DNA of 42,679 nucleotides from a virus: IMG/VR virus record IMGVR_UViG_3300032229_000159, positions 1 through 42,679 of that record. The stretch is one strand, 5' to 3'. The notes beneath the pieces are model-generated. The model saw only the letters and a list, made by a program, of their open reading frames with translations. It was not told where the DNA came from and searched no databases. The position numbers and the translations under genes were made by a program. Shown in pieces: positions 1,544 through 29,431 of the stretch; position 1 is the first letter of the stretch, and every line of letters begins with the position of its first letter.

Positions 1544-4500
1544 ATGTTTGTCTCGGAAATCTTCGATGAATGCGCTGAAATTTTAGGATCAACAGATACC
1601 AATAGGGTATTTCGTAAAATTCAGCAGGCAGTCCAGACCTTGATGGAATCTGGACACTGGACGCACACCACAGCGGAGATCGATGTCTGCACTGGCTGGG
1701 ATCGTTGCAGTCTTGCATTGCCTCGCGGCATTGATGTGCCTCTTGCTGTCAACATCGATGGTTCTCCAACATACTTCCGCAATCGATTGTTCCAATACCA
1801 TGTGAACAAAGGTGGAGTCTATAATTCCGTTGAGTGGGCATGGGATGATCGAGGATATGTTGCAACGCTGATGGACATCATTCAGCCTTCACAACTTGTT
1901 GCGGTGGCTGAAAGCAATAATGATGTTGGCAAGAAAATTCGCGTTCTTGGCATTGATCAAAACAACCGCAATCTTCGCTCGCAGATGCCAAACGGAATGG
2001 GAGTAGATGGTCTTCTCATTCCCATTCACTCGCAGCAAGATTTCCAATATGGAACAATTGCTCCAGATGACGCAACGATTGCAACCCGTGACGTTGCCAT
2101 TGATCCAATTACTGATTTCACAACAACAACTCCACATGGATTGACATCTGGTCAAGGAATGTCTGCAAGGGTGCTTACAGGCACAATTCCAGTGCCGCTA
2201 AACGATGGGCAAACATATTATGTTGGAGTTATTGACGCAGTTACAGTCCAGCTTTTCAGCGATTCGCTAAACGCTGAAGCATTGCAATACCCAATCGCGC
2301 TTTCAAGCATAGTTGGATTTGGAACAATGCAATTACGCGATCAGCGTAATGCTCAAGTGGTAACTTCGCTGGAATTTGCATCTGCTCCATCGTTTGCAAT
2401 TGACTCGCCTAACGAGGTTGTTTTTCCAACATTGCCGCTTCCTGCGCCATTGGAACAAAAGAAAACATACTTTGCACAACCAATAGATTCTACGCATTTG
2501 AACATCTTTAGTTCACTTTCTGACGCGAAGAGTAATAGCAATCCGATCTACACAACTGGTTCAATGTCTCCGATTGACATTGATATTCGGAAGGCAATCG
2601 TTCCAGAAACAAAACTTGTTTTCAGCGTTCGGCATTACTTCAGCGATGGCGACCAAGTGCAGGCATTTACCGCTGGTGGCGTATTGCCTCAACCGCTGAT
2701 TGCAAATCAAAACTACTTTGTCAATGTCATTGACGATTTCTCTGTTTCGTTGCACGAAAACCAAGCTGATGCCGCTGCATCAACTCCGACAAACTTTGTA
2801 AATCCGATCAAGATTACAACTGCTGGATCGGGAACAAACTCGCTTGTCAAGTTGATTCAAGCTACATCAAAAGTAGGCACAGAAAGTCAAATTACTGCAC
2901 CGGGACTTAATATTGCTACTCCATCTGGTTCTGGAGCGCAATTCCAAGCCAATGTTGTTGGAGTTGTAACATCAGTTCGTGTAACTGCTGTAGGAAGCGG
3001 ATATGGAACAACAGTTCCAAATGTTACTTTTTCTGCGCCAACCGATCTACCTTCTGGAAGTAACCTTGAAACTCGAACGGCGGCAGGATATGCAATCCTC
3101 GTTTCTGGATCAGTAAACAATATTGTAATTACTGACGCTGGGCAAGGATATTCATCTGCGCCAACAATTACAATTGATCCTCCTTCGTCTGGAACGCAAG
3201 CAATAGCAACTTCTGTTATTACAACATCTTTTGTTTCTGGATTTACTAAAATTTCTGGTGGATTTAATTACACGGATGTTCCTCAAGTAAAAATTACTGG
3301 AGGGGGTGGAACTGGAGCAACAGCAACAGCAACAGTAAACAACGCAAATATTTCTGTTTCATCAATCTCAAGTGTTGGAACTGCTGCGTCAGCAGTAACC
3401 GCATCACCGCATGGATTTAGTTCTGGTCAAATGGTTAGAATTTCTGGAGCTACTCCAAGTAATTACAATGGTGATTTTACAATTACTGTTCCTCAAATAA
3501 ATACTCCAATATTATCTATTACAAAAGCAACTGCTGGAGCAACTCTTGCTACTGTAACTACAAACGCAGTTAACCATAATTACAATACAGGAGATCGAGT
3601 TACAATTTCTGGGTGCACATTAGCATCTGCTGGATATAATGGCCCATACAACGTTACTGTTACTGGGCCTCAAACATTTACAATCCGTGTTTTATCAACA
3701 TTGCCAACATCTGTTACTGGAACTGTTATTTCATCCATTGCAGACGATACGGCAACAACATTTACATACACGCTTTTAACAGCATATACTGGTTCTGCCA
3801 GCGGAACAATTTCAGTTTTTTCTGGTGAAGTAACAGGGATAAATATTGTTACCGCTGGCACTGGTTATACTACAACACCAACAGTAACAATTATTCCATC
3901 AACTGGCGTACTTGTAAACTTTTCCTCAACTGGAGTATTGCCATCTCCGCTTGTTTCTGGAACGGCATATCGTGCAGAAACTCCATTGAGTGGAATTACT
4001 GGAACATTTACTGTTAAAAACACAGATTTCAGCGATGTAAATATTACTTCTGCTGGAACAGGAACATTTTACGTTGTTCTTTCACGCGCATTTGGAGTTG
4101 ATTTCACAAATAATTGGTTGGGAGATTTTACAACGCTTGTAACTGGTCAACAAATTTACTTTGGAACTGATTACATCCTTCCAACGACATCTCCAGCAAT
4201 TGACAATAGCGTAACTCCGTTTTATTTGAGCGTTGCATCAAACACGCTTGCAAAAGTATACGCAAATGTTGGTTTGACAACGATTGTAAACATCGATTCT
4301 TTCGGAACTGGTCAAACATATTACGCTATTCGGACGCAGGTTTCTCCATCTGTTGACTCAAATCTGATTAAGCCTGTAAATACTGCTTTCTTGACTGAAG
4401 ATCAAGTTGTTCAATTTAGCTCATCTGGAACATTGCCAACTCCTTTGGTTGCATTGACCAATTACACGATCAAAATTATTGGTGACTCTGTTCGCGTTTA

Positions 4501-5287
4501 TAATGGCGCGTCTCCAGTAATTCTTTCTTCAACTGGAAATGGTCAGTTGAGCCTTGACATCATCCGCAATGTTACAGTTCAACCATCTAACAACATTGTT
4601 GCTGATGCTTCGCTCTACGAGACAGGAACGCTGCTTGTAGCTCGCGCAAAAGAAGGAGACACGCTGCCAACTGGATTGTTGCCGAATACAAATTACTATG
4701 TTCGTCGCATTGATAACAATTCTTTCGAGCTTTACAACACGCTTGCCAATGCGCGTAACTTGACATCCACAACTGGACGCAGGACATACACAACAACTGG
4801 CGATTCCGTTTCATCCACATTCTTTGTTGATGCAATTTCCGATCCAATCTTTGTAAAGAGCGTTGCACACATTGAAAAACCTCTTACGGATGGATATGTT
4901 AGCCTTTACGCATGGGATTACGGACGCAGCAACGATATGACTTTGATTGGTCAATATCATCCAACCGAAATCAATCCGCAATATCGCAGAATTCGCATTG
5001 GCAAACCTTGTGCATGGGCAAGGATTATTTACAAGGTTACTAATCCAAGAATTACAAGCGTGTATGATTATATTCCGCTTGAACAAGAGCGAGCAATCAT
5101 TGCTGCTGTTCACGCAGTTGACTTGGAAGATAAGGATTTTGCTGATCAAGCTATGCGTTACTGGCAGATTGCATTTGGATATTTAAAGAATCAGCAAGAA
5201 TCAATTGATGGTCACGCAATGGCAGTTCCTCAAATTAATTCCATCTGTTACGCAGAAGGAGATGGAGCTGATCCTGTGATGTTTTAA
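1544..5287 (+). CDS. Giant head-tail adaptor with inserted beta-repeat region
   Basis: 1247 residues. Residues 1-185 and about 1100-1247 resemble the two halves of a short-tailed phage adaptor (tail tubular A-like): an N-terminal helical start VSEIFDECAEIL and Trp-rich strands, and a C-terminal YRRIRIGKPC, IPLEQERAIIAAVHA and helix FADQAMRYWQIAFGYL. Between them sit about 900 residues of Gly/Thr/Ser-rich beta repeats of three kinds. Six are LPxPL-x4-Y-x4-ID modules (near bases 2185, 2435, 2685, 3935, 4435, 4665). Four are AGxGYxxxPxVxI modules (near 2985, 3130, 3260, 3850). Three are HGxxSGQ/TGDxVxISG modules (near 2130, 3405, 3580). Usual adaptors are about 200-250 residues, so the insertion is extreme. 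The stop overlaps the next start (TAATG). Role inferred: connector under the portal, with repeats perhaps decorating the tail. Confidence 0.65.
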   Translation: MFVSEIFDECAEILGSTDTNRVFRKIQQAVQTLMESGHWTHTTAEIDVCTGWDRCSLALPRGIDVPLAVNIDGSPTYFRNRLFQYHVNKGGVYNSVEWAWDDRGYVATLMDIIQPSQLVAVAESNNDVGKKIRVLGIDQNNRNLRSQMPNGMGVDGLLIPIHSQQDFQYGTIAPDDATIATRDVAIDPITDFTTTTPHGLTSGQGMSARVLTGTIPVPLNDGQTYYVGVIDAVTVQLFSDSLNAEALQYPIALSSIVGFGTMQLRDQRNAQVVTSLEFASAPSFAIDSPNEVVFPTLPLPAPLEQKKTYFAQPIDSTHLNIFSSLSDAKSNSNPIYTTGSMSPIDIDIRKAIVPETKLVFSVRHYFSDGDQVQAFTAGGVLPQPLIANQNYFVNVIDDFSVSLHENQADAAASTPTNFVNPIKITTAGSGTNSLVKLIQATSKVGTESQITAPGLNIATPSGSGAQFQANVVGVVTSVRVTAVGSGYGTTVPNVTFSAPTDLPSGSNLETRTAAGYAILVSGSVNNIVITDAGQGYSSAPTITIDPPSSGTQAIATSVITTSFVSGFTKISGGFNYTDVPQVKITGGGGTGATATATVNNANISVSSISSVGTAASAVTASPHGFSSGQMVRISGATPSNYNGDFTITVPQINTPILSITKATAGATLATVTTNAVNHNYNTGDRVTISGCTLASAGYNGPYNVTVTGPQTFTIRVLSTLPTSVTGTVISSIADDTATTFTYTLLTAYTGSASGTISVFSGEVTGINIVTAGTGYTTTPTVTIIPSTGVLVNFSSTGVLPSPLVSGTAYRAETPLSGITGTFTVKNTDFSDVNITSAGTGTFYVVLSRAFGVDFTNNWLGDFTTLVTGQQIYFGTDYILPTTSPAIDNSVTPFYLSVASNTLAKVYANVGLTTIVNIDSFGTGQTYYAIRTQVSPSVDSNLIKPVNTAFLTEDQVVQFSSSGTLPTPLVALTNYTIKIIGDSVRVYNGASPVILSSTGNGQLSLDIIRNVTVQPSNNIVADASLYETGTLLVARAKEGDTLPTGLLPNTNYYVRRIDNNSFELYNTLANARNLTSTTGRRTYTTTGDSVSSTFFVDAISDPIFVKSVAHIEKPLTDGYVSLYAWDYGRSNDMTLIGQYHPTEINPQYRRIRIGKPCAWARIIYKVTNPRITSVYDYIPLEQERAIIAAVHAVDLEDKDFADQAMRYWQIAFGYLKNQQESIDGHAMAVPQINSICYAEGDGADPVMF

Positions 5288-7653: not shown

Positions 7654-8040
7654 ATGAGAACAAGAATCGAATATAAATACGCAAGACCGGGATCGAATGA
7701 ATTCTATGAATTGCAAGATTTCGCTCAAGAATTTGACCATGAAATCATCGAACATCCGAATATCAATGTTTACGCGCATTATTCTAACGGCAAGTTATTT
7801 GGATATTCTGATCATGTATTTCTTCCTGTCGTCTATCCTGCCTTTCACCCACAACACACGCGACCACAAGATGTAATCCAAGTAATGAGCGATTGGAAAG
7901 CGCACGCGCAACTTTCTGGACAACCCGGATATATCGGAGTTCCGCTAATCAATGATCGACCTAATTTTAGCAATGAAATTATGAATAAATTAGGTTTGAC
8001 AAAAACAGATCGTGAAATTTATAGTATGACCAATTTTTAA
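7654..8040 (+). CDS. Virion-block protein, unknown
   Basis: 128 residues. Rich in Tyr, His and Phe in the centre (VYAHYSNGKLFGYSDHVFLPVVYPAFHPQHT in part), with a compact alpha/beta look that is slightly reminiscent of acyltransferase-like phage proteins found before internal virion proteins; that comparison is weak. The start follows the leader TTAAATAAATAT with no SD. It lies directly before the ejection-type paralogues, so a role in virion assembly is plausible. Confidence 0.6.
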   Translation: MRTRIEYKYARPGSNEFYELQDFAQEFDHEIIEHPNINVYAHYSNGKLFGYSDHVFLPVVYPAFHPQHTRPQDVIQVMSDWKAHAQLSGQPGYIGVPLINDRPNFSNEIMNKLGLTKTDREIYSMTNF

Positions 8041-8042
8041 TC

Positions 8043-8966
8043 ATGGGCGGGTCAAAAACAGTTAATGCACAACAATATTTGAGTAAACCAGATTCCTCGC
8101 GTGATCTGGCAATTCAAATGGCAATGCAGCAAGCCCAAGCACAGCAACAAGCAACGCAAGCTAAATTGCTTGACGCTTATGCAAGAATGGCTCCAGCGCA
8201 GCAAGAGTATGATGCTCTAAAAGAATCTAAACGACTTGGTGAGCTTGGAATGGCTAATGTTCAGCGTTCACGCGAAATGGAGAAAATGGTTTCTCCAGAA
8301 GCAGCGCAAATGCGACAAGCTCAAGGCGCAGAACTTGCGAGACTTGCAAGCATGGATAATGCAACTCGCTACATGAATGAATGGGCGCGTAATCAAGGTC
8401 TTATTCAAGGATACGAAACGGGCCTTGGCAATTCCACTATTGGGCAAGCTGCAACATACGATGCTGCATTGAAAGCAAAAGCTAACTACGATCAGCAAAA
8501 TCTTGCATTACAGCAAGAAATTCTGCGTCAAATGCAAGCTCCAGTAGGTGGCATTGATCCATCTACATCAATTTCAGCGCAAGAAGCAAATAAGGCATCT
8601 AACTTGCAAGCACTTCAAAATTGGCAGGATGCAATGTATGGCAACATTGGAGGATACAACCAATCCGTTGCCGATCAAATGGCACAAGCTGGAGCAAATT
8701 TCCAAAACTTGCAACAGAACGCGATGCAAAACAAGTTGAATTACCAAGGCGCATTGCTTGGGCAGCAAGCTCAAAATCTCGCTTCTCAACGCGCAATGAC
8801 TGGCGCATACATTCAAGCTGGAGGAAGCGTAATTCAAGGAGCAGCGCAAGGTGCAGGTGCTGCCGCTGGTGGAGGTGGATTTGGTGGTGGTGGTGCTGGA
8901 AAATCTTATGGTCAAGCATTAGGCAAACAGCTTGGTTCAAGTCAAGGCAGTTTTATGGACGATTAA
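8043..8966 (+). CDS. Ejection/internal virion-type protein A1 (Gln/Ala rich)
   Basis: 307 residues, dominated by Gln, Ala and Met in long predicted helices, ending in a Gly-rich segment (AGGSVIQGAAQGAGAAAGGGG) that could insert in a membrane. Such composition is typical of short-tailed phage proteins stored in the head and injected with DNA. It is a paralogue of the next gene. Shared landmarks are E-x-G-M-x-N-x-QRS, W-x3-x-GL, IG-x-A-x-YD and A-P-x-GG-[IL]-DP. It starts MGGSK two bases after the previous stop. Function is inferred from composition and place. Confidence 0.6.
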   Translation: MGGSKTVNAQQYLSKPDSSRDLAIQMAMQQAQAQQQATQAKLLDAYARMAPAQQEYDALKESKRLGELGMANVQRSREMEKMVSPEAAQMRQAQGAELARLASMDNATRYMNEWARNQGLIQGYETGLGNSTIGQAATYDAALKAKANYDQQNLALQQEILRQMQAPVGGIDPSTSISAQEANKASNLQALQNWQDAMYGNIGGYNQSVADQMAQAGANFQNLQQNAMQNKLNYQGALLGQQAQNLASQRAMTGAYIQAGGSVIQGAAQGAGAAAGGGGFGGGGAGKSYGQALGKQLGSSQGSFMDD

Positions 8967-8969
8967 TTT

Positions 8970-9761
8970 ATGGCATACCAAAAACCAGACCCAACAATAG
9001 CACTTCAAGGTTTAGGTATTCAAGCGCAAGGACAACTTGCGATGTTGCAAAATCAAGCGGGTCTTCTTAAATCTTACGCATCTCAAGCTCCATTGATGCA
9101 GTCATTTGATGCTGCAAAGACTTCACAGCAGGCAGCAGAGTTTGGAATGGATAATTTGCAACGCTCAAAGGAGTTTGATCGTTTGCTTAATCCAGAAATT
9201 GCCAAGATGCGCGATGAGCTTGGTTCCAAGGTTGCCGAGGCAACTAACTTGGGTGCAACAAAAACTTGGATGGACAATTGGGCAGTCAAAAAAGGATTGA
9301 TGAACCAATCTGGACTTGGAACTGATAGCTTAATTGGAAGGTCTGCCGTTTACGACCAAGCAACAGAAGCTGGAAGGCAGGCAAGGTTACAGAACCTTGC
9401 GATTCAACAGGGTTATCTGGCTCAAACTCCCGCACCAATTGGTGGTCTTGATCCAGCGTCTATTATTGCTGCGGAACAAGCTGCAAAAGCTCAGAACCTT
9501 GTCGCAATGCAGCAGTATCAAGGAAATGTTATGCAGGGAGCGCAACAACTTAATCAATCGACAACAGATTGGATTAATTCAAACCTTGGACAACTTCAAA
9601 AAATCAATCAGAATCAGCAGCAAAGTCAGCAAAATTACGAGCAAATGTTGCTTCAAAATGCTCAACAAAATGCCGCAAGCGGCAACGCTCAAAAGGGACA
9701 AATGATTCAAACTGGAGGTGCTGTTGCTGGTGCTGTTTTGGGTGCTGCTATTATTATTTAA
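8970..9761 (+). CDS. Ejection/internal virion-type protein A2, paralogue of A1
   Basis: 263 residues. Aligns by eye with the preceding protein over most of its length: EFGMDNLQRSKEF against ELGMANVQRSREM, WMDNWAVKKGLMNQ against YMNEWARNQGLIQG, and APIGGLDPASIIAAEQA against APVGGIDPSTSISAQEA. The last 20 residues are a Gly/Ala/Ile hydrophobic segment (TGGAVAGAVLGAAIII), a probable membrane-active helix at the very C-terminus. The final A of its stop codon TAA is the first base of the next gene's ATG (9761). Likely a virion protein ejected with or ahead of DNA; inferred from composition and paralogy. Confidence 0.6.
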   Translation: MAYQKPDPTIALQGLGIQAQGQLAMLQNQAGLLKSYASQAPLMQSFDAAKTSQQAAEFGMDNLQRSKEFDRLLNPEIAKMRDELGSKVAEATNLGATKTWMDNWAVKKGLMNQSGLGTDSLIGRSAVYDQATEAGRQARLQNLAIQQGYLAQTPAPIGGLDPASIIAAEQAAKAQNLVAMQQYQGNVMQGAQQLNQSTTDWINSNLGQLQKINQNQQQSQQNYEQMLLQNAQQNAASGNAQKGQMIQTGGAVAGAVLGAAIII

Positions 9762-10597
9762 TGAAACAGCTAATAGATACAACAATACATAAAATCAAAG
9801 AATGGAACAAAAGATGGCCGAGAGCAGTAGTTTTATGGAGTGGAGGTAAAGACTCCACGGCACTGCTGCATTTGATCAAGTTTGGAGCAGGAATTGATCT
9901 TCCCGTCATACAGTATCGTGAACCAAAATTCCGTGAACGATACGCTTATTCAGATCGATTAATCAAAGAATGGAAGTTGGAAGTTTACGATTACGCTCCA
10001 AGCAAAATAGCTATTGCAGATGGGCCTGATGTTGAAACTGGAGAACTGCGATTTGACTTCATTAAATATTATCAATGGGGTCAAGGAACGGCAGTGTGCT
10101 TGTCTCTTGGGACTGAACGACCAAAGGAAAACGAGGACTTCTTGTGCGGTGTTACTGATGTCTTGCAGCGTCCTACGGGCACATTTAACTGGCCTTGGGG
10201 AGCAGTGTATATCGGAACTAAATATAGCGATACAGATTTGATTAAAGGTCATGTTCCGCTTGCGGTTGATATTCGATACGCTGAAAACTCTCCGATGTCT
10301 CTGTATCCAATGCGAGACTGGACTGATGATGATATTTTTCAGTATCTGGAAGACAACGGAGTTCAGCCAGACCCGACAAGGTATGTGAAAGATTACCACA
10401 AATGGAAAAACAATCCCGACAAGTCACTTAATGCAGACTTCTATCCTATTTGTTTCAACTGCATCAATCGGCACGAAGGAAAGTATGTTGATTGTCCTAA
10501 ATTAAAAGCTAAAATATCAAACATTTCTCACCTTGCGCCATACGAAGATTTGGTGAATGAAGACCTTGGATTCCGACCTGTGACATGGAACAAATAA
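9761..10597 (+). CDS. PAPS reductase-family PP-loop enzyme
   Basis: 278 residues. The PP-loop SGGKDS at residues 27-32 after strand VVLW, and the following helix TALLHLIK, identify the adenine-nucleotide alpha-hydrolase/PAPS reductase fold, which binds ATP or PAPS. W-x-W-G, PMRDWTDDDIFQYL (typical of the sulfurtransferase-like branch) and a C-terminal Cys set C231-x2-C234 with H238 and a later Cys (VDC, about residue 245) follow. The Cys pattern suggests a metal or Fe-S site rather than the ECGLH thiol motif of assimilatory reductases, so the substrate is uncertain; nucleic acid thiolation is one option. The gene sits among virion genes between two paralogue pairs and overlaps the next gene by 13 bases. 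Confidence 0.8.
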   Translation: MKQLIDTTIHKIKEWNKRWPRAVVLWSGGKDSTALLHLIKFGAGIDLPVIQYREPKFRERYAYSDRLIKEWKLEVYDYAPSKIAIADGPDVETGELRFDFIKYYQWGQGTAVCLSLGTERPKENEDFLCGVTDVLQRPTGTFNWPWGAVYIGTKYSDTDLIKGHVPLAVDIRYAENSPMSLYPMRDWTDDDIFQYLEDNGVQPDPTRYVKDYHKWKNNPDKSLNADFYPICFNCINRHEGKYVDCPKLKAKISNISHLAPYEDLVNEDLGFRPVTWNK

Positions 10598-10881
10598 GTG
10601 AATTTGACTGCAAATCATGCGGTGCTTGTTGCTGTTTCAAATGGTCTTGGCCTGTTTTAAAACGAGATCGTTCAGACGCAATAAACATACCGAATGAAAT
10701 GGTCAGAACAGATTATCCACTGATGAAAACAACTGACAATCGTTGCATTGCACTTGAAGGAAAAGTTGGTCAATCTGTCTGTTGCAAGATTTACAATGAC
10801 AGGCCAAATTCTTGCAGGCAATTTGAACCCGGAAGTGATCTTTGCAGAGAAGCTCGCAAAAAAGTTCTTGAACAAAGTTAA
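10585..10881 (+). CDS. YkgJ/UPF0153-type CxxCxxCC cysteine cluster protein
   Basis: 98 residues with the hallmark cluster C9-x2-C12-x2-C15-C16-C17 near the N-terminus, a central CIALEG and CCKIYNDRPNSCRQF, and a last Cys in GSDLC. This is the layout of small Fe/Zn-binding proteins of the YkgJ (UPF0153) family, whose exact role is unknown. It overlaps the PAPS-reductase-family gene by 13 bases, so the two are probably translationally coupled and may share a metal-dependent reaction. The next gene starts 36 bases downstream. Confidence 0.75.
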   Translation: MEQISEFDCKSCGACCCFKWSWPVLKRDRSDAINIPNEMVRTDYPLMKTTDNRCIALEGKVGQSVCCKIYNDRPNSCRQFEPGSDLCREARKKVLEQS

Positions 10882-10917: not shown

Positions 10918-11397
10918 ATGGGCGGAAGTCGATCACAACCTAAACAACAACAACAACAGCAACAACCGCAATCTTCTGGCCCTGATCCAATGATTGCATT
11001 CATGGCAATGCAGCAACAGCAACAAGCCGCTCAAGCTGCCGCTGAAGCTGAACGGCAAAGGCAAGCTCAAATTCAAGCTCAACAACAAGCTGGAATGCAG
11101 GCGCAGCAACAAGGTGAAGCTGCTGCCAAAAGCGCATTGAGCGGAATGAATGTTGGTCAGCAAGCGCAAGACCAAGCTACTATGGCTGCTCAACAAAAAG
11201 CATCTGCTCCAATTGGAGGAGCAACACCATCTCCTGTTGCTGATGCTGGTCAATATCGTCAAGCATCTCTTGGAACAATGGGAGGACAACAAGGAGCGGC
11301 AGCAATGGCAGCAAATGCTGGCGCAGGCGGAACACAGCAACGAAATAACCAGTTTCAAGTTCCTGCAACTACTGGTTTAACTTTTGGAGGAGCATAA
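10918..11397 (+). CDS. Gln-rich virion-type protein B1
   Basis: 159 residues. Starts MGGSRSQ, then runs of Gln encoded by CAA/CAG, GPDPMIAFMAMQ, and long Gln/Ala helices. The C-terminus is FQVPATTGLTFGGA. It is a paralogue of the next gene (GPDPM-[IM]-AF start, FGG end). Low complexity limits any functional call. The place, between the Cys-cluster gene and more virion-type proteins, suggests a small internal or scaffold-like virion component. Confidence 0.55.
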   Translation: MGGSRSQPKQQQQQQQPQSSGPDPMIAFMAMQQQQQAAQAAAEAERQRQAQIQAQQQAGMQAQQQGEAAAKSALSGMNVGQQAQDQATMAAQQKASAPIGGATPSPVADAGQYRQASLGTMGGQQGAAAMAANAGAGGTQQRNNQFQVPATTGLTFGGA

Positions 11398-11399
11398 TT

Positions 11400-11915
11400 A
11401 TGGGCGGAGGAGGAGGTGGTTCTAAACCCAAAAAACAAACGCAAACTGGGCCAGACCCTATGATGGCGTTTTTGGCTCAAATGCAATCTCAACAAGCTGC
11501 TCAAGCTGCTGCTGCTCAACAGGCTCAAGAAGAAGCGTTGAAGCAATCTCAAATTACCGCTGGCACACAACGTCAACAGCAAGCAGAGCAGGCCGCTAAA
11601 CAAGAACTCGCAACAATGGGTTCAATGCAGTCGATCCGCGATGCCAACGCACTTCTTGCAGCACAACAGGCACAAGCTACCGCTGGACAGCAAGCAACTG
11701 GCGGTGGATTTGATTTCAATAAGTCCCGTGAAGAGGCACTTGCCAATCTTGGAGCAGCGGCGGGAATGCTACCATCAACATATTCTAATGCACCTACAAC
11801 CTCTGTAAATCCAGCTTTAACAGGTCTTGTAAACCAAGGTGCAGGAGCAGCATCTAAAAAAGCAAATATCTTCTCGCTCCCATCTTCATCTGACCTTAAA
11901 TTTGGTGGCGTTTAA
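11400..11915 (+). CDS. Gln/Ala-rich virion-type protein B2, paralogue of B1
   Basis: 171 residues starting MGGGGGGSKPKK, two bases after B1. Shares GPDPMMAFLAQMQ with B1 and ends SSDLKFGGV, matching the FGG end of B1. The middle is Ala/Gln helix (QQAAQAAAAQQAQEEALKQ), followed by a less biased stretch with FDFNKSREEALANLGAAAG. The GGAGG upstream codes for the end of B1 and may double as a ribosome site. Probable internal virion protein; function inferred only. Confidence 0.55.
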   Translation: MGGGGGGSKPKKQTQTGPDPMMAFLAQMQSQQAAQAAAAQQAQEEALKQSQITAGTQRQQQAEQAAKQELATMGSMQSIRDANALLAAQQAQATAGQQATGGGFDFNKSREEALANLGAAAGMLPSTYSNAPTTSVNPALTGLVNQGAGAASKKANIFSLPSSSDLKFGGV

Positions 11916-11917
11916 TT

Positions 11918-13660
11918 ATGGCAATTTCATACTCTGGAGAAGGATATAAATTCAATCCGCAGTTTGCCAATCTTGGCGCATTGCAAGGATTGCAACCGCT
12001 TGATGTTACTCGCAAAGCTGAATTCCAGCTTCAACCATTGACATACGCTCCTATTCCATCCTCGCGTCCAGAGCTTGTATCTGAAGGCATTTCTAAAGGC
12101 ATTCTTGCTGCTGTTGGCGGCATTACTGAAGGCATTACTGCTAAATACAAAGCAGAGCAAAAAAGAGAAGAAAAACTTGCTGAAAGAGCGCATGAGAAGC
12201 AATTGGTTGCATTAAAATATGGTCTTGATAAAACAGAGACTGAAGAAAAAGCAAAAGATTATATTACAAGGCAAAAAGCATTAATTGATTACAGAAACGA
12301 TACAGCAAAAAGACTTAAAGGTTCTCTTGGAGAAAATTTCCCTATTTATGGAGGAGATACTACAACGGAAACGGAAACTGAACCTGCTCCAATAGAAGTA
12401 GAACCAATTGAAGATGAGTTGCCTGCTGACTTTGACACTACTCTTAATGAATTAGAAGGAACAAGTTTGTTTGGACAACTTGCGCCAGCAGATGCAATGC
12501 AGGCTCAAATTGCAGAGCAAGCAAAACAACTTCAAGGTTTATCACCAGAATATCTTACCGCTGGTCTTGAAGCGGGTGCTGTTGCTCCAATTGAACCAGT
12601 TCCTCAAATGTCTCTGGAAGGATTTAAAGCTACTGCAATTTCTCCAGAACAAGCAGCGCAAGCAACTGAAGTAAGGAAAGAACTTCGTCAAACACTTGCT
12701 GGAATTAAACCTGTAAAACCAGAAGTTGCAAAATCAGAAGCTCAACGTCCCGGTTGGTATCCAATTGAAAAAGCTCAAGAAGAAGCATCTCGCAATATTC
12801 CCGGATGGAAACCCGCTGAAATTGATGAAGTAAATGTAAAAAATGTAGGTGGAGTTCCTTATTATCTTGTTAAACCAAGGAAAGTTTTGACTAAAAAAGA
12901 GCAAGCTGAAGAACAGGCAGCATTAAAAGCTCCTGAAATGTCAAAAGAGCAAAATGCTATTTTAATTTCACAAATAGGAAAACTTGAAGCTGACAAAACA
13001 TATTTCAAAGCATTGGAATCAAGGGATTCAAGAGATATTATTTTAACTTCATTATCAAAAGAAGATGGTTTTTCAGACATTGCTGCAATTAACGCATTTC
13101 AAAGATTGATTGATCCCGGCGTTGCTGTCAGGGAAGGTGATGTTGCGCTTATTCAATCTGCATCTGCACTTTTTGATAAATACAATCCTAAATTTATTGG
13201 TAAAAAATTCCAATCTGGTGATAAATTGCCTCCAGAAGATCGAGAAAAAATGCGTTCTCTTACAAAAGAACTTGCAAGAATGCAAATGGAAAAGGCAAAT
13301 AAAGGCCCGATTCAAAAATATAGGTCATTAACACAAAAAACAGGCATTGATCCAGATTTGTTGGCAGTTCCATTTGATCTTGAAGAAACAAAAGAACAAA
13401 CACCGCAAGACCAAATTTCAACGCTTTCAATGGAGCTTGAACAAGTTCCAGTAGATCAAAGAAACTCTCCAGACTTCCTTGCAAAGCGCAAAGTATTATT
13501 TGATCTTGTTAAACAACAAGAAGAGTTGAAAAAGAAATCACAACCAAAACCAACTCCAACTCCTACTCAAGTTCCACAACCAACATTTCAACCAGCGGTT
13601 CCTCGCCAGCCAGTAACAGAATACGGAGAAACAATAGAATCGATGTTTGGAAATAGATAA
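11918..13660 (+). CDS. Large coiled-coil virion-type protein, unknown
   Basis: 580 residues. A Gly/Ile-containing hydrophobic segment (ISKGILAAVGGITEGI, about residues 58-76) precedes a highly charged coiled coil (KAEQKREEKLAERAHEKQ, about 77-125). An acidic Pro/Glu linker (about 145-170), Gln/Ala helices and a second charged helical half follow. The C-terminus is Pro/Gln/Thr rich (PTPTPTQVPQPTF) and looks like a flexible tail. Not recognised. Position directly before the giant polyvalent gene, one base apart, and the membrane-plus-coil pattern suggest an ejected internal protein partnered with it. Confidence 0.6.
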   Translation: MAISYSGEGYKFNPQFANLGALQGLQPLDVTRKAEFQLQPLTYAPIPSSRPELVSEGISKGILAAVGGITEGITAKYKAEQKREEKLAERAHEKQLVALKYGLDKTETEEKAKDYITRQKALIDYRNDTAKRLKGSLGENFPIYGGDTTTETETEPAPIEVEPIEDELPADFDTTLNELEGTSLFGQLAPADAMQAQIAEQAKQLQGLSPEYLTAGLEAGAVAPIEPVPQMSLEGFKATAISPEQAAQATEVRKELRQTLAGIKPVKPEVAKSEAQRPGWYPIEKAQEEASRNIPGWKPAEIDEVNVKNVGGVPYYLVKPRKVLTKKEQAEEQAALKAPEMSKEQNAILISQIGKLEADKTYFKALESRDSRDIILTSLSKEDGFSDIAAINAFQRLIDPGVAVREGDVALIQSASALFDKYNPKFIGKKFQSGDKLPPEDREKMRSLTKELARMQMEKANKGPIQKYRSLTQKTGIDPDLLAVPFDLEETKEQTPQDQISTLSMELEQVPVDQRNSPDFLAKRKVLFDLVKQQEELKKKSQPKPTPTPTQVPQPTFQPAVPRQPVTEYGETIESMFGNR

Positions 13661-13661
13661 A

Positions 13662-16600
13662 ATGGCAAGCATTCTTGACGAAATCAAGGCAGAAGTCGAA
13701 GCGGAACTATCTCAACAACCTCAAGAAGAAAAACCAGTAAGCGTTCTTGAAGATGTTAAGCAGGAGGTTTCGGCAGAACCACAACAAGCTCCAGTTGAAG
13801 AACCGCAAGGTGATTTTTTTGAGTCTGCCGAAAGGTGGTTAGAACCTGCTCCAACGCAAAAATCCAGCGGAGATATTTTCCTTGGACTTATTTCCAATAA
13901 ACGCGCAAACGAGCTTGACGATGAAGAAAAAGGTTTGTTCAACGCATTAAGCGACGAGGAGCAATACAAGGTAGCTCAAGCTCGCAAAGACATTCCGCTG
14001 GATGACGCTCAAGCGAGGCGCATTTTTGAGGTTGAAAAGTCAAAGATGCCATCAGTTCCGACATCTTGGGAAGATTGGTATAATCTTGGTGGTGATGCTT
14101 GGGATGTTGTTAAGAATGTTTCCAAGATTCCAATTAAAGTTGGACTTGGTGCAGCGGAATTTGGTCGAGATGTTGTTAAAGCAACGGATATGACTGTTAG
14201 TGACGAAGAGGCTGCTAACAACATCAAAAAAGCACAAGGTTCATTTTACTCGTTCATGGCTCCAGCAATGGAACTTCCAGAAGATGTTCTTTGGGCGGCA
14301 ACAAAAGCAAAAGAAGGCGGATTAGGATGGGCGGATGCTGCTGGAGAAAAACTTGGTTTGGTTACTCCAGAAGACCGATTTGAGCGTTGGAAAACAAGAA
14401 GGTTGGTAACTCAAGCTCAAGCAGAATATTTCCGCGAACATCCAACAATTTACGGCAGGTTGCTTGATAGTCCTCTTGCAAAAGATGCTCTTGCTGGAAT
14501 TGCAAAATGGGAGATGGAATCTCCAGAGGAATTGGCAAAGCGAACGAACATTTCTGTTGAAGAAGCAAAAGCTCAACAAGACGCGATGGCGCGTGAGCAA
14601 ATTGACAATTTGACTTCTCAAATGGAATCAGAATTGCCAGAAGAAAAAGCTCGCGTAAGAATTGTTGGCGAGTTTTTGCTTCCCGGAGAGGTTGGCATGG
14701 GAACAATGGGGGCTGTTAGCATCGCAGCAAAAAGCGCAAGAAACATCGCGCAAGGATTGAAATACATTGGCAAATCCGCTGATGAAATTAATGAAATCAA
14801 CAAGGCAGCACAAGCATTACGAAAATCTCAATTTGCAGAAATGCTTAAAAAACGCACAGAGCGAGCAGAAGCGGTTGCTCAAGGTGCAGGCAAGATTGAA
14901 AAAGCGATTGAGGGATGGAAACCTGCCGCAGAAAAAGTAAATAAAGTTCTTGGTAACATTACCGCTCCTGTTCTTGGTGGTGTTGCTGGCTATAGCGTTT
15001 CCGAAGAATCGCCAATGACTGGTATTTTGAGTGGAGTTCTTGGTGGGGTTGCCGCAAGAGGCGTATTGAAGGGAACGAAGGTTGGTCTTGAAATTCCAAC
15101 ATTTGTTCGTGAGGTTGCAGAAGCTCGCAAGGTTGCACCTCTTGGCAAGACATTTGAGACACTCGGCAAATCCGCTGAAGGATCGGCATTGAAGGCTAAA
15201 ATTCTTTCCCGTGGAGGAAAGACGATTGATAATATTCTTTCAAACTCTGTTGAGTATGCGAAGTCTGGAATCCACGGAACTACGCTTGCTCTTGCTACTG
15301 GAGCATTAGAGTCCGCTGATCCAGAGGAGATGAAGCAGATGCTTGCTGATGGTCTTGCAATCACTCTTGGTGGACGCGCATTGCAGCATATCAAGGGCAA
15401 GATGATGGGCAATGACCCTATCATTGAACAACGCGAGCGTATTTCAGACGATTCTCGCATCCATCGCAGGTATCAAGAAGCTGATCCAGAAACCCAAGCA
15501 AACTTGGATCAAATTTCTGACTTTGATAATGCTATTTCTGCAAGAGAAACAAAGCTGAACGAAAGCGAATCTGACCTTGCGAACTTGATGGCATCTTACA
15601 AGGGTTCAGCGGAAGATGCCAAAAAAATTAAACTTGCTCAATCGGAAGTAGAAAAAAACAAGATTGCACTTGATCAAGTTAAACGCGCCAATGTGCAAAC
15701 GCGCAATGAATTTGGCAGGGAGTTTTTGAAGACATACGCAAACCTTCAAGACATCACCAATGGTGTTATGAAGAGTGGTCAGAACAATGTTGGGTTCAAT
15801 GTTCTTTCAACTGATCAAATCTATCAAAAGTTGCGTAATGATCCAGCGAACAGCAATGTTCCAGACGCTGACCTTGTTCAAATGGCAAGCCAAGCTGGAT
15901 TTTACTCAAATCCCGCACAACAAGGGCTTGCATTTGACCGCAGAAAACCATCCATTGTTATCAATGCAGACTCCATTCGTGAGCGCATCAAGTTGTTTGG
16001 TGAATCACCAACCGAAGCATTGGTTCACGAAACATCGCACTTCATGGATGTTGTGCCAGAGTTCCAAGAAGCACTTGCTCCAGTGCGTTCGATGCTTTTC
16101 CAAAACGAAATCCGCGATGCCGCTGGAAACATCAAGGCGACAACTTCTGGTATTTTCTCAAAGGCAAAACTCGTTGAACTTTTCAACGATGGATACCTTC
16201 GCCATTTAGACCCGCAAGGAAGAGAAGCATTTTCCAAGCTGAACAAACTTTGGGATGAATCCCGTGGTCAGTTGGATGAAAACAAGGTTGCCAACTACAT
16301 GAAGAGTGAAGTCATGGCAGACTTGCTTGGCGAAGTATCCAGCAGGCATCTTGCAAATGATTTGGATTCCGCAACGCTTGCCATGTGGGATCGCGCAAGG
16401 ATCAAAGCAAAGAAAAACTTGCTGGATCGTGCAATCAATCGTTTTTACGGACTTGGAGGACGAGGTGACATTGTTACTGCTGCCAATACACGCGCAGAAT
16501 TCCCCCCAGAAGCGATGGCGGCAGCAAGAGATGCAATGCGCCAGATCGTTTCTTTAAATGGCGAAATTTCGCCTCCAGCGCAAGAAGCTGATATGCCTGC

Positions 16601-19600
16601 TATCAGCAAGGCGCAGATGATGAAAAACTCTGCGCTGATCGAGCGTTTCGGAAAAGATTCTCCGCTATTCAAAACAGAATTTAAAGTCAAGGTATTCGAC
16701 AAGGACGGCAATCAGATTGGCGAGTCAATGCCAGTGACAACGCCAAATCCACGGGAAGGAACATTCCAAAGCACAGATGTTGGAATGAAGAAACTTTCTG
16801 GATATGGCGACATTCCAGCGGAAGCGCAAGGACTGCAAGTTCCCGAAGGTGGAACTCTTGTTGTCTCGCGTGATTTGGTCATGCAGCCAGATGGGGTAAC
16901 TCCTGTCATGTATGAGCCAAAGGACGCAAAGAAAATTGATGCAGACCGCAAAAAGCTGATTACAGAGGCACTCGATACAGACGATTACGGAACACCTAAT
17001 CGTTTTGAGCCTGTTGAAGAAGGATCGGAAACATACCGAGGCACATTCACTCCGCTTCAGATTCAAGCTATCAAGGATATGCCAGAAAGTCTTGTTCCAA
17101 AAACTCTCAAGGAGCATATGCTTAAAATTAACGATGCCATCGTTCGTGGAGATGGAACAAGGTTCATCGTGGATTATGCAGCGGTAATGAATGACAAGGG
17201 CAAGTATCAAGCATTCTCGCCAAAGATGTATGACCTTGTGCCAATCGGAATGCACTTGTCGAGCAAAGGAAATTTCCTTGTAACTACAATTTCCGTTGGA
17301 CGCATATTTGATAAAATGCGCTTGTGGAATGAGCGTATGCCGGGTCGCTTGCGTTTCTGGGATAATAACCTTGAGCGCACATTTGATGATTTTGTTAAGT
17401 ATCTTAAAAACTGGGAAGCTGGAAAACCCGGCAAAACAGACCTTGATGCTGATCCGAAAATAGCAGAAGCAAAAGCAGTAATTTTCAACGATCTTCTTAA
17501 TCTTTACGACAAGGCAACGGAATACACTAATCTCGAAAGGACAAAAATTCCTCGTCGCAAAGGTGATCCTCGCGGCAAAGACCCTAACCGCACGATCATG
17601 TCAATTCGCGTTGACCACATTGCTGAATTGATTCCAAACGAGAACGCAACAAAACTTCCAGTCAATTACGGATTTGCTAAAATCAACTTCATGCCAGAGC
17701 GCATGGAAGGTGAAGTTCCAGCGCAGGAAATACGACAAATTGATGAAAATATAAGATTTGCAAATCCTGCATTGGAAAAAGACGCAGTTGAAGCATTAAG
17801 TTCAAACAAACGTCAGTATTTTGGAGCGCATCGAGATTTAGACGATGGTTATCCTGTTGGAATAAGAATTGATATTCCTGCATTTACATCAAAAGGAGTA
17901 TATGTAGTAACTGTCCACGAAAAGAAAAAAGGTGGAGAAAGAGGACAAGTTGGAGAAAGAATCGGATATGACACAATTGCAAAAGTAGATAATCCTGTTT
18001 TCTTCTCTAATGAAGTTGGTGCTAAAAAAATAAAATCTGGAGAAGCCAATAAATTCCCAGTTGCAACAGTTGAAGGTCAATTTAACTCTTCAAGAGAAAT
18101 TCCAGAAGACATCAATGAATGGACACCTGTTGGATATAATCCACGGGAGCATTCTTACTTCTACGACAAACGCAACGATGAACCAGTGCTATCTGGAGAT
18201 GAAGCAATATCTGTTGGCAATACTGTTTTTGTTAAAAATCCTGTGTATGGAGACAAGGCTAATTTTGCATTCATGCCAGAGCGTCCAGCAGAGCAAGAAC
18301 CTACTATCGGAGAAAAAACTGAAATTTCTCCAAAGATAGGTGGTGAAGTTGAAACACAAAGCATAGAAAATATTCAAAAATTGCTTGCTGAAGCAAATGC
18401 AAGAAAGAAGTCAGCTTTGGATGCCTTTAATACAAAGGCAAACGAAGAATCGTTTGACTCTCCAGAAGCAACAAAACTTTATGAAGAGTATGACGCAATA
18501 AGAAAAGAAGTCCGCGATTTAGAATTCCAAGTTAGAAATCCCGGAGCAAAAAAGTTAAGTTTAGATGAAAGAGACAGATATTTAAGCGATCTTGAATCAC
18601 TAAATGAAGGTATTCCAACGCAAATAGAGCAAGGATTGTTTGGCCCAAGGGATACAGGCAGACGATGGAAAAAAGGAAAAAAGATTGCTGATTCAGATGC
18701 TCTTGGTGACAAATTTGAAGCTGAACTTACTGGTGGCGTTTTGTTTCGTGGAGTAACAAAAGAAGATTGGGAAAGAATCCAAAACCAAGGATACATTGAT
18801 ACAGATGGGCGCGGTGTAATTTCTCCAGAAGAAGAAATCAATCTCGCTACGAGCGTAGTAACGGCAGAAACATATATTCCGCACGGAAAACAAGGCGTTG
18901 TTCTTGCAATAGACCCAGCGGGACTTGATCTATTTATGATTGGCGCAGATGACTATTTAAGGGCATCTGGGCGCATTCCAATTGATAATGTTGTGAAAGT
19001 TTCTGGGCCTATCGGAAAAGATAGCGAAACAGGAACTCCATTTATACCATCTGAAACTTTTACCGAGATGAAACCTACTATCTCGGAAAAACAGCAAAGT
19101 TCTCAGATGATAGGTGCTGACACAATTAAACCCATTGATCTTCAAACAAGTGCAAAACCAGAAGCTGACGCAGTAATCAAGCCATTCTCGAACGCTTTAG
19201 TGTCATCCGCTGGACTCATCAACTTCCTTCCTGCTTATCACGGCACTCCATTTGATGTGGACAAGTTCAAGTTGGCAAATATCGGAACTGGTGAAGGAGC
19301 GCAGGCGTATGGATGGGGGCTTTACTTTGCACAGGCAAGAAAAGTTGGAGAGCAATATCGAGATGAGTTGTCTGGATATGATGAATTAACAATTTTTACT
19401 GATAAAGGTAAAAAGAAAGGTCAACAATTGGACGACCTTGACTTGGAAGCTGCTAAATATCTTGAATCTGGCGCAAGAGCAGCAGGACAATTTAAACACA
19501 ATACTGTTTACTACGCAAAACAAGCCGCTGAACGAAATGGCAAACAAGATGTTGTTGCACGAATTGATGAATATGGAAGAGATGCAAAAGTAACTTACGA

Positions 19601-22155: not shown

Positions 22156-22254
22156 ATGACAATTCACACTTGGACAATTTTGGTGATTGCTACGGCATCG
22201 TTTATTGCTGGTGGATTCTGCATTGCCGCTGCTTGCTGGTGGGACGATAAATGA
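22156..22254 (+). CDS. 32-residue single-pass membrane peptide
   Basis: One hydrophobic segment covers most of the protein (WTILVIATASFIAGGFCIAA), ending CWWDDK. It overlaps the next start by ATGA. Candidates are a tiny holin-like or membrane-anchor protein, but nothing in the sequence proves a lysis role. Confidence 0.4.
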   Translation: MTIHTWTILVIATASFIAGGFCIAAACWWDDK

Positions 22255-22934
22255 TCACGCTTAAAAACATTGATCCAGTTGCCATGCGGTATGCGACAAC
22301 TGGCGATTGGGAATGGTTGCCTAATAGTCACCTCAAATGCTCTGTGGCCGATTACGGCAACGAGGATGGCGCATTCTTGGTCAACCTGCATGAACTGGTA
22401 GAAGCATGGCTATGCAACAAGGCTGGAATCCGCGAGGATGAGGTCAGCAAGTTTGATGTCACAAATTGTGACCTTAAAGAACCCGGCGACTCTCCAGAGG
22501 CTCCGTATTACCACCAGCACCTCGCTGCAACGCAGATCGAGCGCATTGCTTGTCAAGCGGCAGGAATCGACTGGGAGGAGCATAACAACTGGGTGCAGCG
22601 AGCAGGCGACGAAGTTGAGCGCAAGCAAGGCGACGAAGTGCCAGCAATCCTTCTCAATGGGCCGAGGTTCTGGGCAGAGTTGCATTTGCTTGGATTGCGC
22701 CACAGGTCAGGCAAAAACATGACTGGTTGGCTTAACGATTGGCGCGATTCTATTCCGTTCAATGGATGCCCATGCAAGGAGCATCTTGACGAGTGGATGA
22801 GCGAAAATCCTCCAGACTGGAACCGCTTTTTTGAGTGGGGTATTGACTTGCACAACGCAGTAAATATGCGGATTGGCAAGCCAACGATGGATGTTGAGAA
22901 CGCGAAAGAATTGTGGATGCAACGACACTTCTAA
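22251..22934 (+). CDS. Phage protein with Erv1-like C-terminal motif
   Basis: 227 residues. The C-terminal part (about 140-227) reads FWAELHLLGLRH, then W-x7-IPFNGCPCKEHLDEW, PPDWNRFFEWGIDLHNAVN-x3-GKP and ELW. This spacing of Trp, C-x-C, His-Asn-Ala-Val-Asn and Gly-Lys-Pro resembles Erv1/Alr-like sulfhydryl oxidase domains reported in some phages. Here the redox pair would be C-P-C rather than C-x2-C, so catalysis is uncertain. The N-terminal 130 residues are unrecognised. Overlaps the membrane peptide upstream (ATGA). Confidence 0.5.
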   Translation: MITLKNIDPVAMRYATTGDWEWLPNSHLKCSVADYGNEDGAFLVNLHELVEAWLCNKAGIREDEVSKFDVTNCDLKEPGDSPEAPYYHQHLAATQIERIACQAAGIDWEEHNNWVQRAGDEVERKQGDEVPAILLNGPRFWAELHLLGLRHRSGKNMTGWLNDWRDSIPFNGCPCKEHLDEWMSENPPDWNRFFEWGIDLHNAVNMRIGKPTMDVENAKELWMQRHF

Positions 22935-27797: not shown

Positions 27798-28520
27798 ATG
27801 AAAATTAAACGACCAGCATTCCAGTTCTACCCCGCAGACTATTTAGGTTCGCAGAGGGTGGCATTGATGACACTTGAAGAAGAAGGCGCATACTTGAGAT
27901 TGCTTTGCTATTGTTGGCAGCATGGAAGCATACCTTCCAATCCAGAACAAATCGCACGATTGATCGGTAAGTGTGCTTCAACCACCCTTGCAACCAATGT
28001 TGCAACCATGTTCCAACCACACCCAGAAAATGGTTCGTTGTTGGTTCACGAAAGACTCCAACAGGAAATCGTCAAGCAAAATGAATGGGCAAGGAAAAGT
28101 GCTGAAGGTGGTAAAAAGTCTGCTGAAATGAGGAAGAATCTCAAGGGTGGTTCAACCACACTTGCAAGGGTGGTTGAAGAATGCTTGCCAAATGGTATCA
28201 ACCAAAACGCAACACTTCTTCTTCAGTCTTCTTCTTCTTCTACATCTTCTACTACTACAGAAAAGAAAACTACTACAGCAATCCAACCATTCACAGTCGA
28301 TGATCAGGTCTGGAATGACTTCCTCGCAGTTCGCAAAGCTAAACGCGCACCGCTGACAGAAACAGCACTTGCCATGATCGAAAAAGAATCTGAACTTGCA
28401 GGCTTGACACTCAATGACGCTCTGACAGAATGCGTCACCCGTGGATGGCAATCATTCAAAGCTGACTGGATCAAACCAAAGCAGCAACAAGTTGAGATGA
28501 CATACTCACGGGCTTGCTAA
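27798..28520 (+). CDS. DUF1376-type replication protein
   Basis: 240 residues. N-terminal domain RPAFQFYPADYLGSQRVALM, then TLEEEGAYLRLLCYCWQHGSIP and an IARLIG helix (residues about 1-60) is the DUF1376/YdaU fold common in phage replication proteins. A Ser/Thr-rich linker (SSSSSTSSTTT) separates it from a C-terminal domain (VWNDFLAVRKAKRAPLTETA, GWQSFKADWI) like DnaT/helicase-loader ends. The coding sequence contains a cluster of CAACCAC iterons and a large palindrome, as phage origins inside initiator genes do. A DnaB-type helicase lies 1.5 kb downstream, the likely partner. Confidence 0.7.
   Translation: MKIKRPAFQFYPADYLGSQRVALMTLEEEGAYLRLLCYCWQHGSIPSNPEQIARLIGKCASTTLATNVATMFQPHPENGSLLVHERLQQEIVKQNEWARKSAEGGKKSAEMRKNLKGGSTTLARVVEECLPNGINQNATLLLQSSSSSTSSTTTEKKTTTAIQPFTVDDQVWNDFLAVRKAKRAPLTETALAMIEKESELAGLTLNDALTECVTRGWQSFKADWIKPKQQQVEMTYSRAC
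27976..28179 (+). repeat. Iteron/palindrome array, candidate replication origin
   Basis: CAACCA occurs at 27979, 27991, 28003 and 28014, that is every 11-12 bases, about one helical turn. CTTCAACCACCCTTGCAA (27976-27993) reappears as its exact reverse complement at 28162-28179 and as a 16/17 direct match at 28151-28167. Together 28151-28178 form a 28-base palindrome with one mismatched pair. CAAGGGTGGTT is repeated at 28142 and 28165. All lie in the DUF1376 gene. Confidence 0.55.
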
Positions 28521-28522
28521 AA

Positions 28523-29431
28523 ATGAAAAAGCACTTAGATTTGTTTTCTGGCATTGGTGGATTTGCATTAGGGTTAGATCGCGTTTGTGAATTTCAACAC
28601 ACATTTGTTGAATATGAGCCGCATCTAAAAAGGGTGCTGAATAAAAATTTTCCGTCATCGAAAGTTTATGGAGACATAACAGAATTTACACCTGACTTTC
28701 AGCCTTGGGTAATAACTGGTGGATTTCCATGTCAGGACATATCCAGAGCAAATACAAACAAAAACAAAGGAGGAATAAATGGAAACAGAAGCGGATTATG
28801 GAAACACTACCTTAGAATTATTCGGGAATCTTCACCTAAATACGTCATCATCGAAAATGTGTATGATCTCTTGTCAAACGGGCTTGGAATCGTTGTGCAA
28901 GACTTGGCCGAAAGCGGGTATGATTCGACTTGGACGATCATCGACTCTAAATTCTGCGGAGTTCCACAAAGAAGACGTAGAGTTTACATACTGGGATTCC
29001 GTGATGGAATCACCAGAGGAACCGATCCACTCAACAATACAAAGCGTTCTTCTTACGAATTACGATCCAAAGTTAAAGATATCGAAAAAATCAGCAATTG
29101 GTATTTTGAGGAGAGCATGGGAACGGAACATCCCATTGCCTACTTTACTCGCCAACGCTCTGATGAATATGCTGAGTGCGGATTGTCTGGAACTATTGCA
29201 AAAAGAGATTACAAAAGTTTCACAGACATTGTGTTGCACGGAGATGGAAAGTTGCGACGAGTTGGGGTTGTGGAAAGATTAAGGTTACAAGGAATTCCAG
29301 ATAATTGGTTGGATGACTGCAATCTTTCAGAAGTTCAAAAATATCAAGCAAATGGAATGACAGTTCCAGCAGTTTCTTGGGTGGCAAAACAACTTATTTC
29401 TTATGATGAAAGACTGGACATTCAAAAATAA
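28523..29431 (+). CDS. Cytosine-5 DNA methyltransferase
   Basis: 302 residues from ATG 28523, two bases after the previous stop; a TTG at 28514 is less likely. Motif I LDLFSGIGGF (5-14) binds SAM, motif IV PCQ with catalytic C70, motif VI ENV (111-113), motif VIII QRRRR (149-153), motif X with QANGM-x-VP (275 on). The target-recognition part (about 165-240) contains FTRQRSDEYAECG. It would put 5-methylcytosine in phage DNA, probably to evade host restriction. No cognate restriction enzyme is seen. The gene is AT-rich compared with the helicase gene downstream and fully contains a second gene in another frame (28779-29282). Confidence 0.92.
   Translation: MKKHLDLFSGIGGFALGLDRVCEFQHTFVEYEPHLKRVLNKNFPSSKVYGDITEFTPDFQPWVITGGFPCQDISRANTNKNKGGINGNRSGLWKHYLRIIRESSPKYVIIENVYDLLSNGLGIVVQDLAESGYDSTWTIIDSKFCGVPQRRRRVYILGFRDGITRGTDPLNNTKRSSYELRSKVKDIEKISNWYFEESMGTEHPIAYFTRQRSDEYAECGLSGTIAKRDYKSFTDIVLHGDGKLRRVGVVERLRLQGIPDNWLDDCNLSEVQKYQANGMTVPAVSWVAKQLISYDERLDIQK
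28768..28773 (+). promoter_or_regulatory. Strong Shine-Dalgarno inside the methyltransferase gene
   Basis: AAAGGAGG precedes the ATG at 28779, with AATAA between. Most starts in this window have no such site, so it is a notable signal for the nested gene. The same bases code Lys-Gly-Gly of a conserved methyltransferase loop, so some of the match may be coincidence. Confidence 0.55.
28779..29282 (+). CDS. Phage protein nested in the methyltransferase gene (GILRRAxxR family)
   Basis: 167 residues in the +1 frame within the methyltransferase gene. KTWPKAGMIRLG (41-52) and then ESPEEP, a short Ser/Leu helix, YDPKLKISKKSAIGILRRAW (95-114) and ERNIPLPTLLANAL match the layout of a small phage protein often found beside cytosine methyltransferases (usually SGM-x2-G, then LSAKACAGILRRAEKRGK and LP-x2-L-x2-AL). 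An AAAGGAGG site precedes the ATG. Both frames thus look conserved, a true double-coding stretch of 504 bases. Function unknown, perhaps helping the methyltransferase. Confidence 0.65.
   Translation: METEADYGNTTLELFGNLHLNTSSSKMCMISCQTGLESLCKTWPKAGMIRLGRSSTLNSAEFHKEDVEFTYWDSVMESPEEPIHSTIQSVLLTNYDPKLKISKKSAIGILRRAWERNIPLPTLLANALMNMLSADCLELLQKEITKVSQTLCCTEMESCDELGLWKD

Follow-up and report, generated by a model that had tools for sequence, protein, structure and literature searches.

What does a gene of the PAPS-reductase family do among the tail and internal-virion genes of a podovirus-type virus? The question is raised by a virus record of IMG/VR that was analyzed whole, as a window of 42,679 bases, in which a protein with a PAPS-reductase domain (P) is encoded immediately ahead of a small CxxCxxCC protein (the C protein). 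That viruses carry PAPS-reductase genes is well established (described in the parts seen of PMC9301287, PMC11437467 and PMC8066274). In the portion consulted of one of these papers cysH is counted among the often reported viral auxiliary metabolic genes (PMC9301287), and a table in the accessible part of a 2025 review gives viral cysH as not validated (PMC12713726).

The pair is embedded in a block of podovirus-type virion genes that encode tail and internal-virion-type proteins (Table 1). A preliminary description of this DNA had placed it between two pairs of paralogous ejection-type proteins, and this location is confirmed: A1 and A2, whose mutual similarity is evident from cross-matches between the searches of their relatives, lie upstream, and B1 and B2 lie downstream. 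No family model names the A or B proteins, and we infer their "ejection-type" character from position and composition. Both ORFs of the pair are real, as had been described, with Pfam matches over the cut-offs and an overlap of 13 nt; the start of P uses the last base of the A2 stop codon (1-base overlap). An MGG start is common to many short proteins of the block (A1, B1 and B2 in the window, and inserted genes of relatives), and a similar FGG motif is seen at the ends of B-type proteins.

Table 1. Features of the virion-gene block of the window
Feature	Coordinates	Strand	Remarks
Tail/connector-type protein, 1247 aa, large low-complexity insertion	1544..5287	+	weak PHROG tail and head-closure matches
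Tail-tube-B/internal-virion-type protein, 700 aa	5287..7389	+	phrog_511 "internal virion protein", E 9e-7; kept in relatives
Conserved 128-aa protein	7654..8040	+	no Pfam match over cut-off
A1, Gly/Ala/Gln-rich ejection-type protein, N-terminus MGGS	8043..8966	+	
A2, A1-like ejection-type protein, C-terminus GAVAGAVLGAAIII	8970..9761	+	
P, PP-loop (PAPS-reductase-domain) protein, 278 aa	9761..10597	+	C129, C231, C234, C245 invariant; no ECGxH
C protein, CxxCxxCC, 98 aa	10585..10881	+	eight conserved cysteines, KWSWP signature
B1, Gln/Ala-rich protein starting MGGS	10918..11397	+	
B2, B1-like protein	11400..11915	+	
Internal-virion-type protein, 580 aa	11918..13660	+	
Giant 2779-aa protein	13647..21986	+	
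Erv1/ALR-like ORF, CPC and HNxVN motifs, possible redox accessory	22251..22934	+	present in 17/42 records

P matches the Pfam PAPS_reduct domain (PF01507) with 30.8 bits (cut-off 22.5) and belongs to the PP-loop ATP pyrophosphatase superfamily. Its PP-loop, SGGKDS, occupies residues 27-32, with each position kept in at least 155 of 156 distinct P proteins. Four cysteines, C129, C231, C234 and C245, are invariant in all 156; as judged from this pattern (C129 plus CxxC-x10-C), they are likely to bind a [4Fe-4S] cluster, to carry sulfur, or both. The structure model of P is of mediocre to fair quality (mean pLDDT 63.3). A Foldseek search of the PDB with this model returned weak matches alone, none at E <= 0.001, and the one good viral match was A0A6J7XPH8, named PAPS reductase.

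Comparison with CysH and APS reductases, which have the PP-loop fold in common with P, set P apart. The catalytic motif ECGxH is present in none of the 156 distinct P proteins, versus ECG[LM]H in 8/8 CysH proteins of alignment A3, where the residues E, C, G and H are invariant. The loop of P reads SGGKDS instead of the reductase form, the score against the CysH equivalog model is 20.6 bits for a cut-off of 154, and C129 aligns with the CC pair of APS reductase. In a tree of 46 proteins, the 12 viral P included formed one clade (support 100/100) and the 13 CysH a separate one (99/99), with P outside it. The two DndC proteins grouped alone, and CysD did not include P. The branches joining the clades were not resolved, and the stem of P is long (2.2).

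By profile comparison (hhalign), P is closest to CysD, sulfate adenylyltransferase subunit 2 (E 1.6e-16), followed by PAPS-domain proteins from CPR and archaeal MAGs (6.4e-16) and by CysH (1.3e-4). CysD is, like P, an ATP-using PP-loop enzyme, and 1zun is also matched at E 2e-9; however, its clade is separate, P carries extra cysteines, and P scores far below the cut-offs of the CysD models (TIGR02039, 35.4/396.6 bits; NF003587, 44.2/195 bits). The scanned ORFs of the window yielded no CysN. The second-ranked proteins (from Parcubacteria, Giovannonibacteria and an archaeon; L144, L145, L147 and L148) resemble P in being without ECGxH but differ in their cysteine set, CC plus CxxC; they are encoded on cellular MAG contigs, and their loci hold no CxxCxxCC gene.

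The C protein matches the CxxCxxCC domain PF03692 with 33.6 bits (cut-off 23) and contains the CxxCxxCC core of that family. In 91 sequences, none of its eight cysteines is substituted where the sequence covers the position. The core is common to YkgJ/FliB-type CxxCxxCC proteins (PF03692); unlike these, the C protein has a KWSWP signature and P as a close neighbor. No relative with a solved structure was found for the C protein, and its own structure model (pLDDT 45) was unusable and was set aside.

Relatives were collected by IMG/VR scans with P or C protein queries, the alignment scan keeping the best 80 of 467 related stretches. After removal of duplicates by their first 500 nt, 163 distinct P loci were obtained, 158 of them with a full-length P. 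The pair was counted without the cellular loci L144-L148, the named records L344-L346 and minus-strand P matches. A C protein gene was present on the strand of P in 125 of 128 distinct full P loci with at least 1 kb downstream, and a search of 41 whole records found it in 38; the same three loci (L077, L078 and L195) are the exceptions in both counts. Among full P loci with a C protein, the two genes overlap or abut in 97, and in 49 the C protein lies 300-1000 nt away; the spacers, in the cases read, hold a gene for a protein that starts with MGG. In five loci drawn by the tail gene (L459-L463) the C protein gene is on the opposite strand. In G338 and G339, where both P and the C protein were located, the two are ~40 nt apart and thus still adjacent despite inversion of the C protein gene. 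The whole arrangement was found again in more than a hundred distinct viral loci, far more often than coincidence could account for. Our results bear out the preliminary description in two respects: the genes are coupled, and the PP-loop protein is something other than an assimilatory CysH. Both outcomes that it had named as fatal to its proposal, a pair not conserved together and a grouping with CysH, failed to appear.

To these loci we added scans with the tail gene, which listed 87 loci, 50 of them with at least 4.5 kb downstream. P is present in 47 of these 50. The loci L410, L411 and L419 have neither P nor the C protein while their neighbors are preserved, and for L410 and L419 the full records are without them too; L465 is also without the two. 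P is therefore dispensable. P without a C protein was seen in L077, L078, L195 (the same as L427), L415 and L417. A C protein-type gene for which no P was found in the record occurs in L330 (31 kb), among other kinds of neighbor genes; in four further C protein loci without P (L100, L111, L312 and L333) the C protein lies within ~1.2 kb of the locus end. Loss of the C protein is thus more frequent than loss of P, which would fit an accessory role of the C protein.

The place of P within the block is fixed as well. A long ORF ends between -3 and +59 nt from the P start in all 158 full loci, the upstream ORF of L315 being possibly a wrong one, and it ends at exactly 0 in 108. The A-type product encoded upstream of P usually ends in a hydrophobic Gly/Ala tail: of 60 distinct C-termini, 55 reach a mean Kyte-Doolittle value of 2 or more over the last four residues, and the isoleucine codons used are varied. 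In L415, P is present and the upstream tail ends in ATAY, and in L419, L410 and L465, which are without P, the upstream protein has neither a hydrophobic tail nor a Peptidase_S74 domain. These four loci led us to demote the C-terminal tail from proof that the A protein is the substrate of P to speculation.

A scan of genome contigs for P returned a single full-length relative, L143, on a Chthoniobacter flavus MAG contig, plus five distant ones. Among 288 genomes of the phylum of C. flavus, full-length P was present in one, that of L143. Phage-type proteins (helicase-, terminase- and portal-like, from ORFs read by eye) are encoded upstream of P there, and the contig (G032:C4) carries a P-C phage region that represents a prophage or a mis-binned phage. 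As far as searched, the P family is virus-only. A tblastn search of 50,697 phage records with P, a set from which records very near the window may be absent, gave no match at E 1e-5 and so no isolate of the family, and partial or weak matches appeared among named phages at E values up to 10; A2 had no match in named phages at E 1e-2. Two matches to the C protein filed under "Acinetobacter phage MD-2021a" were dropped, the one examined looking like a bacterial chromosome. L346 (CAKLQH020000013.1), filed under that name, holds fhuA, guaB and glmM and has the look of a bacterial chromosome.

We propose that P and the C protein form one virus-specific enzyme system, which adenylates a substrate, most likely for sulfur transfer, during late morphogenesis, and which is neither an assimilatory CysH nor a major virion component; we assign this reading a probability of roughly 0.45. 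PP-loop enzymes adenylate their substrates with ATP, and P, as a PP-loop ATP pyrophosphatase, would likewise activate its substrate as an adenylate. Its cysteine set suggests sulfur transfer as the likeliest second step, in which the C protein would assist. The C protein may be an accessory iron- or zinc-binding cysteine-cluster partner, serving as a cluster donor or redox partner, that is gone in some lineages. To judge from gene position, both proteins would be made from the late operon right after A2 and would act inside the infected cell while virions are being assembled, with the ejection protein A2 as the first candidate substrate.

The preliminary description had named nucleic-acid thiolation as an example of what the pair might do, P with the C protein placing sulfur on tRNA or phage DNA in the manner of TtcA or DndC. 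Such a role is doubtful, and nothing points to a DNA or RNA substrate. The PP-loop fold and cysteines suited to a [4Fe-4S] cluster would serve it, as would late expression beside packaging if DNA were modified. E. coli TtcA likewise combines SGGKDS with CxxC motifs, at 122 and 210; P, however, has a single conserved CxxC (231-234) plus C129 and C245, and not the two CxxC of TtcA. DndC resembles P in its SGGKDS PP-loop and a CxxC but is longer (430 and 583 codons open) and stands apart in the tree. P reaches 14.2 of the 290.4 bits required by the DndC model, and its PADLOC match (E 0.006) spans 18 residues. Neither a tRNA gene in the window nor a Dnd partner among the window ORFs scanned was found.

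Cultured Burkholderia podoviruses have a PP-loop gene in the equivalent slot. In Lessievirus, JC1 gp65, BcepIL02 gp67 and DC1 gp65 are PF01507 PP-loop proteins (43 bits) like P. Their genes come right after that of a virion protein whose C-terminus is hydrophobic and precede those of further virion proteins and a giant DarB-like protein. By positional analogy the latter corresponds to the giant protein of the window, and, again by position alone, an acetyltransferase gene takes the place of the conserved 128-aa protein. The Lessievirus PP-loop protein represents another branch of the superfamily, nearer to CysH profiles (36 bits) than to P (20 bits) and with the cysteines CC and CxxC. It has no CxxCxxCC partner, and JC1 gp66 is a Gly/Ala/Pro-rich protein. 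PP-loop genes of this other branch occupy the equivalent slot in ctyzp037 and in phiA008, where the frame lies partly outside the annotated ORF. Profile comparison of the A proteins of the window family with those of cultured phages found no homology (probability 3%), so that the equivalence of the two slots is positional alone.

A difference in the upstream protein accompanies the gene. Homologues of that protein were found in 38 records for the Lessievirus type and 9 for the ctyzp037 type, GenBank/RefSeq duplicates included; the phiA008 protein, which is in neither list, was chosen by position. Five phages with a PP-loop gene (BcepIL02, DC1, JC1, ctyzp037 and phiA008) were compared with 19 in which a motif search found none (L477-L495 are among the loci). 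The motif search was a regular expression applied within ~3 kb of the cultured A genes, which can miss degenerate loops (it misses the P of L459), gave a false match inside the A protein of ctjtQ328 and a spurious minus-strand match in L459. The comparison excludes CSP3 and BcepMigl, which have a PP-loop gene, as well as Stean, PEp14, SJM3, LASTA, Mwe-JY07, RHph_TM27A, TM27B and TM29. Of the 19 phages that lack a PP-loop gene, 15 have a Peptidase_S74 domain fused to the C-terminus of the upstream protein, and the five that carry the gene never do; by hand calculation, which ignores shared ancestry, the chance of 0 in 5 is 126/42,504, or ~0.003. MJing1, RHph_TM3_14A, CV-1-33 and ctjtQ328 have neither. 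In the aligned set, S74 starts at or just past the point at which the protein of the PP-loop phages ends. The Manatee Spring phages ctyzp037 (PP-loop) and ctvy9321 (S74) exemplify the alternation, their upstream proteins being 72.7% identical over 61% of the length.

The 3' end of the ejection-protein gene could also be no more than a module boundary that collects morons, in which case the pair would have nothing to do with virions and might serve, for example, host metabolism or counter-defence. That other podoviruses hold other modules at this boundary (the S74 domain, short ORFs), and that related phages are without the pair, would agree with such a positional accident. Two findings argue against it: lineages with A proteins that have no detectable homology carry genes of the same superfamily at this point, and the conservation of P is close to that of the tail protein, whereas the genes next to P diverge. 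We consider an accident of position rather improbable.

The S74 alternation invites a more specific and distinctly improbable reading, in which the PP-loop enzyme is a trans-acting maturase of the upstream ejection protein and takes over from the S74 chaperone-protease that acts in cis, fused at the same point, in other podoviruses. The enzyme would activate and modify the hydrophobic C-terminus (e.g., through an acyl-adenylate to a thiocarboxylate) or would aid folding. Self-cleavage at the first serine releases S74 domains; if this happens here, the mature protein would end like that of the PP-loop phages. The ATAY tail of L415, together with the lack of both tail and S74 in L419, L410 and L465, means that there is no strict either/or rule between P and S74.

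Virion cargo and CysH activity are both unlikely roles for P. The preliminary description had suggested a cargo unit, in which P and the C protein would be carried in the virion and delivered into the next host to work there, as their place among ejection genes and the abutment of the P start on the A2 stop might suggest. A positional analogy from a different branch of the superfamily disfavors this: in the part seen of the list from mass spectrometry of CsCl-purified JC1 virions, gp64, gp67, gp68 and gp69 are given, gp64 being the product of the gene next to that of gp65, and gp65, the counterpart of P, and gp66 are absent (PMC9144972). We regard cargo as unlikely. An assimilatory role, with P as a viral CysH that boosts the supply of sulfite and cysteine as an auxiliary metabolic gene, is most improbable despite the PF01507 match, the naming of such genes as cysH in viromes (PMC9301287, seen in part) and the proposal of sulfate reduction for gp65 by the JC1 authors, who call it a moron in the part seen of their paper (PMC9144972), given the lack of ECGxH, the low equivalog score, the separate clade and the late structural position.

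In the open-access literature we recognized no report of the P-C pair, of its fixed slot or of the alternation between PP-loop gene and S74. P represents a large class of viral "cysH"-type genes that are without the catalytic motif, virus-only as searched, accompanied by a Cys-cluster partner and set in an ejection-protein operon; a viral "sulfur metabolism" gene may thus in fact serve virus assembly or modify a molecule. If our reading is true, viral sulfur metabolism claimed on the basis of the P family will have to be re-examined, and an unrecognized enzymatic step is added to podovirus ejection. The reading can be tested in those cultured Burkholderia phages that carry an analogous gene.

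Virion redox chemistry, also raised in the preliminary description, is kept alive as a reading by the Erv1/ALR-like ORF downstream, which matches Pfam PF04777 (Erv1/ALR sulfhydryl oxidase) with 35 bits and ALR chains of the PDB at E ~2e-4. In this ORF, CPC replaces CxxC, and HNxVN is kept in the aligned relatives. Elsewhere in the window we noted a C5 cytosine methylase gene (28514-29431) and a glycosyltransferase gene (34841-35956; phrog_3408, 640 bits).
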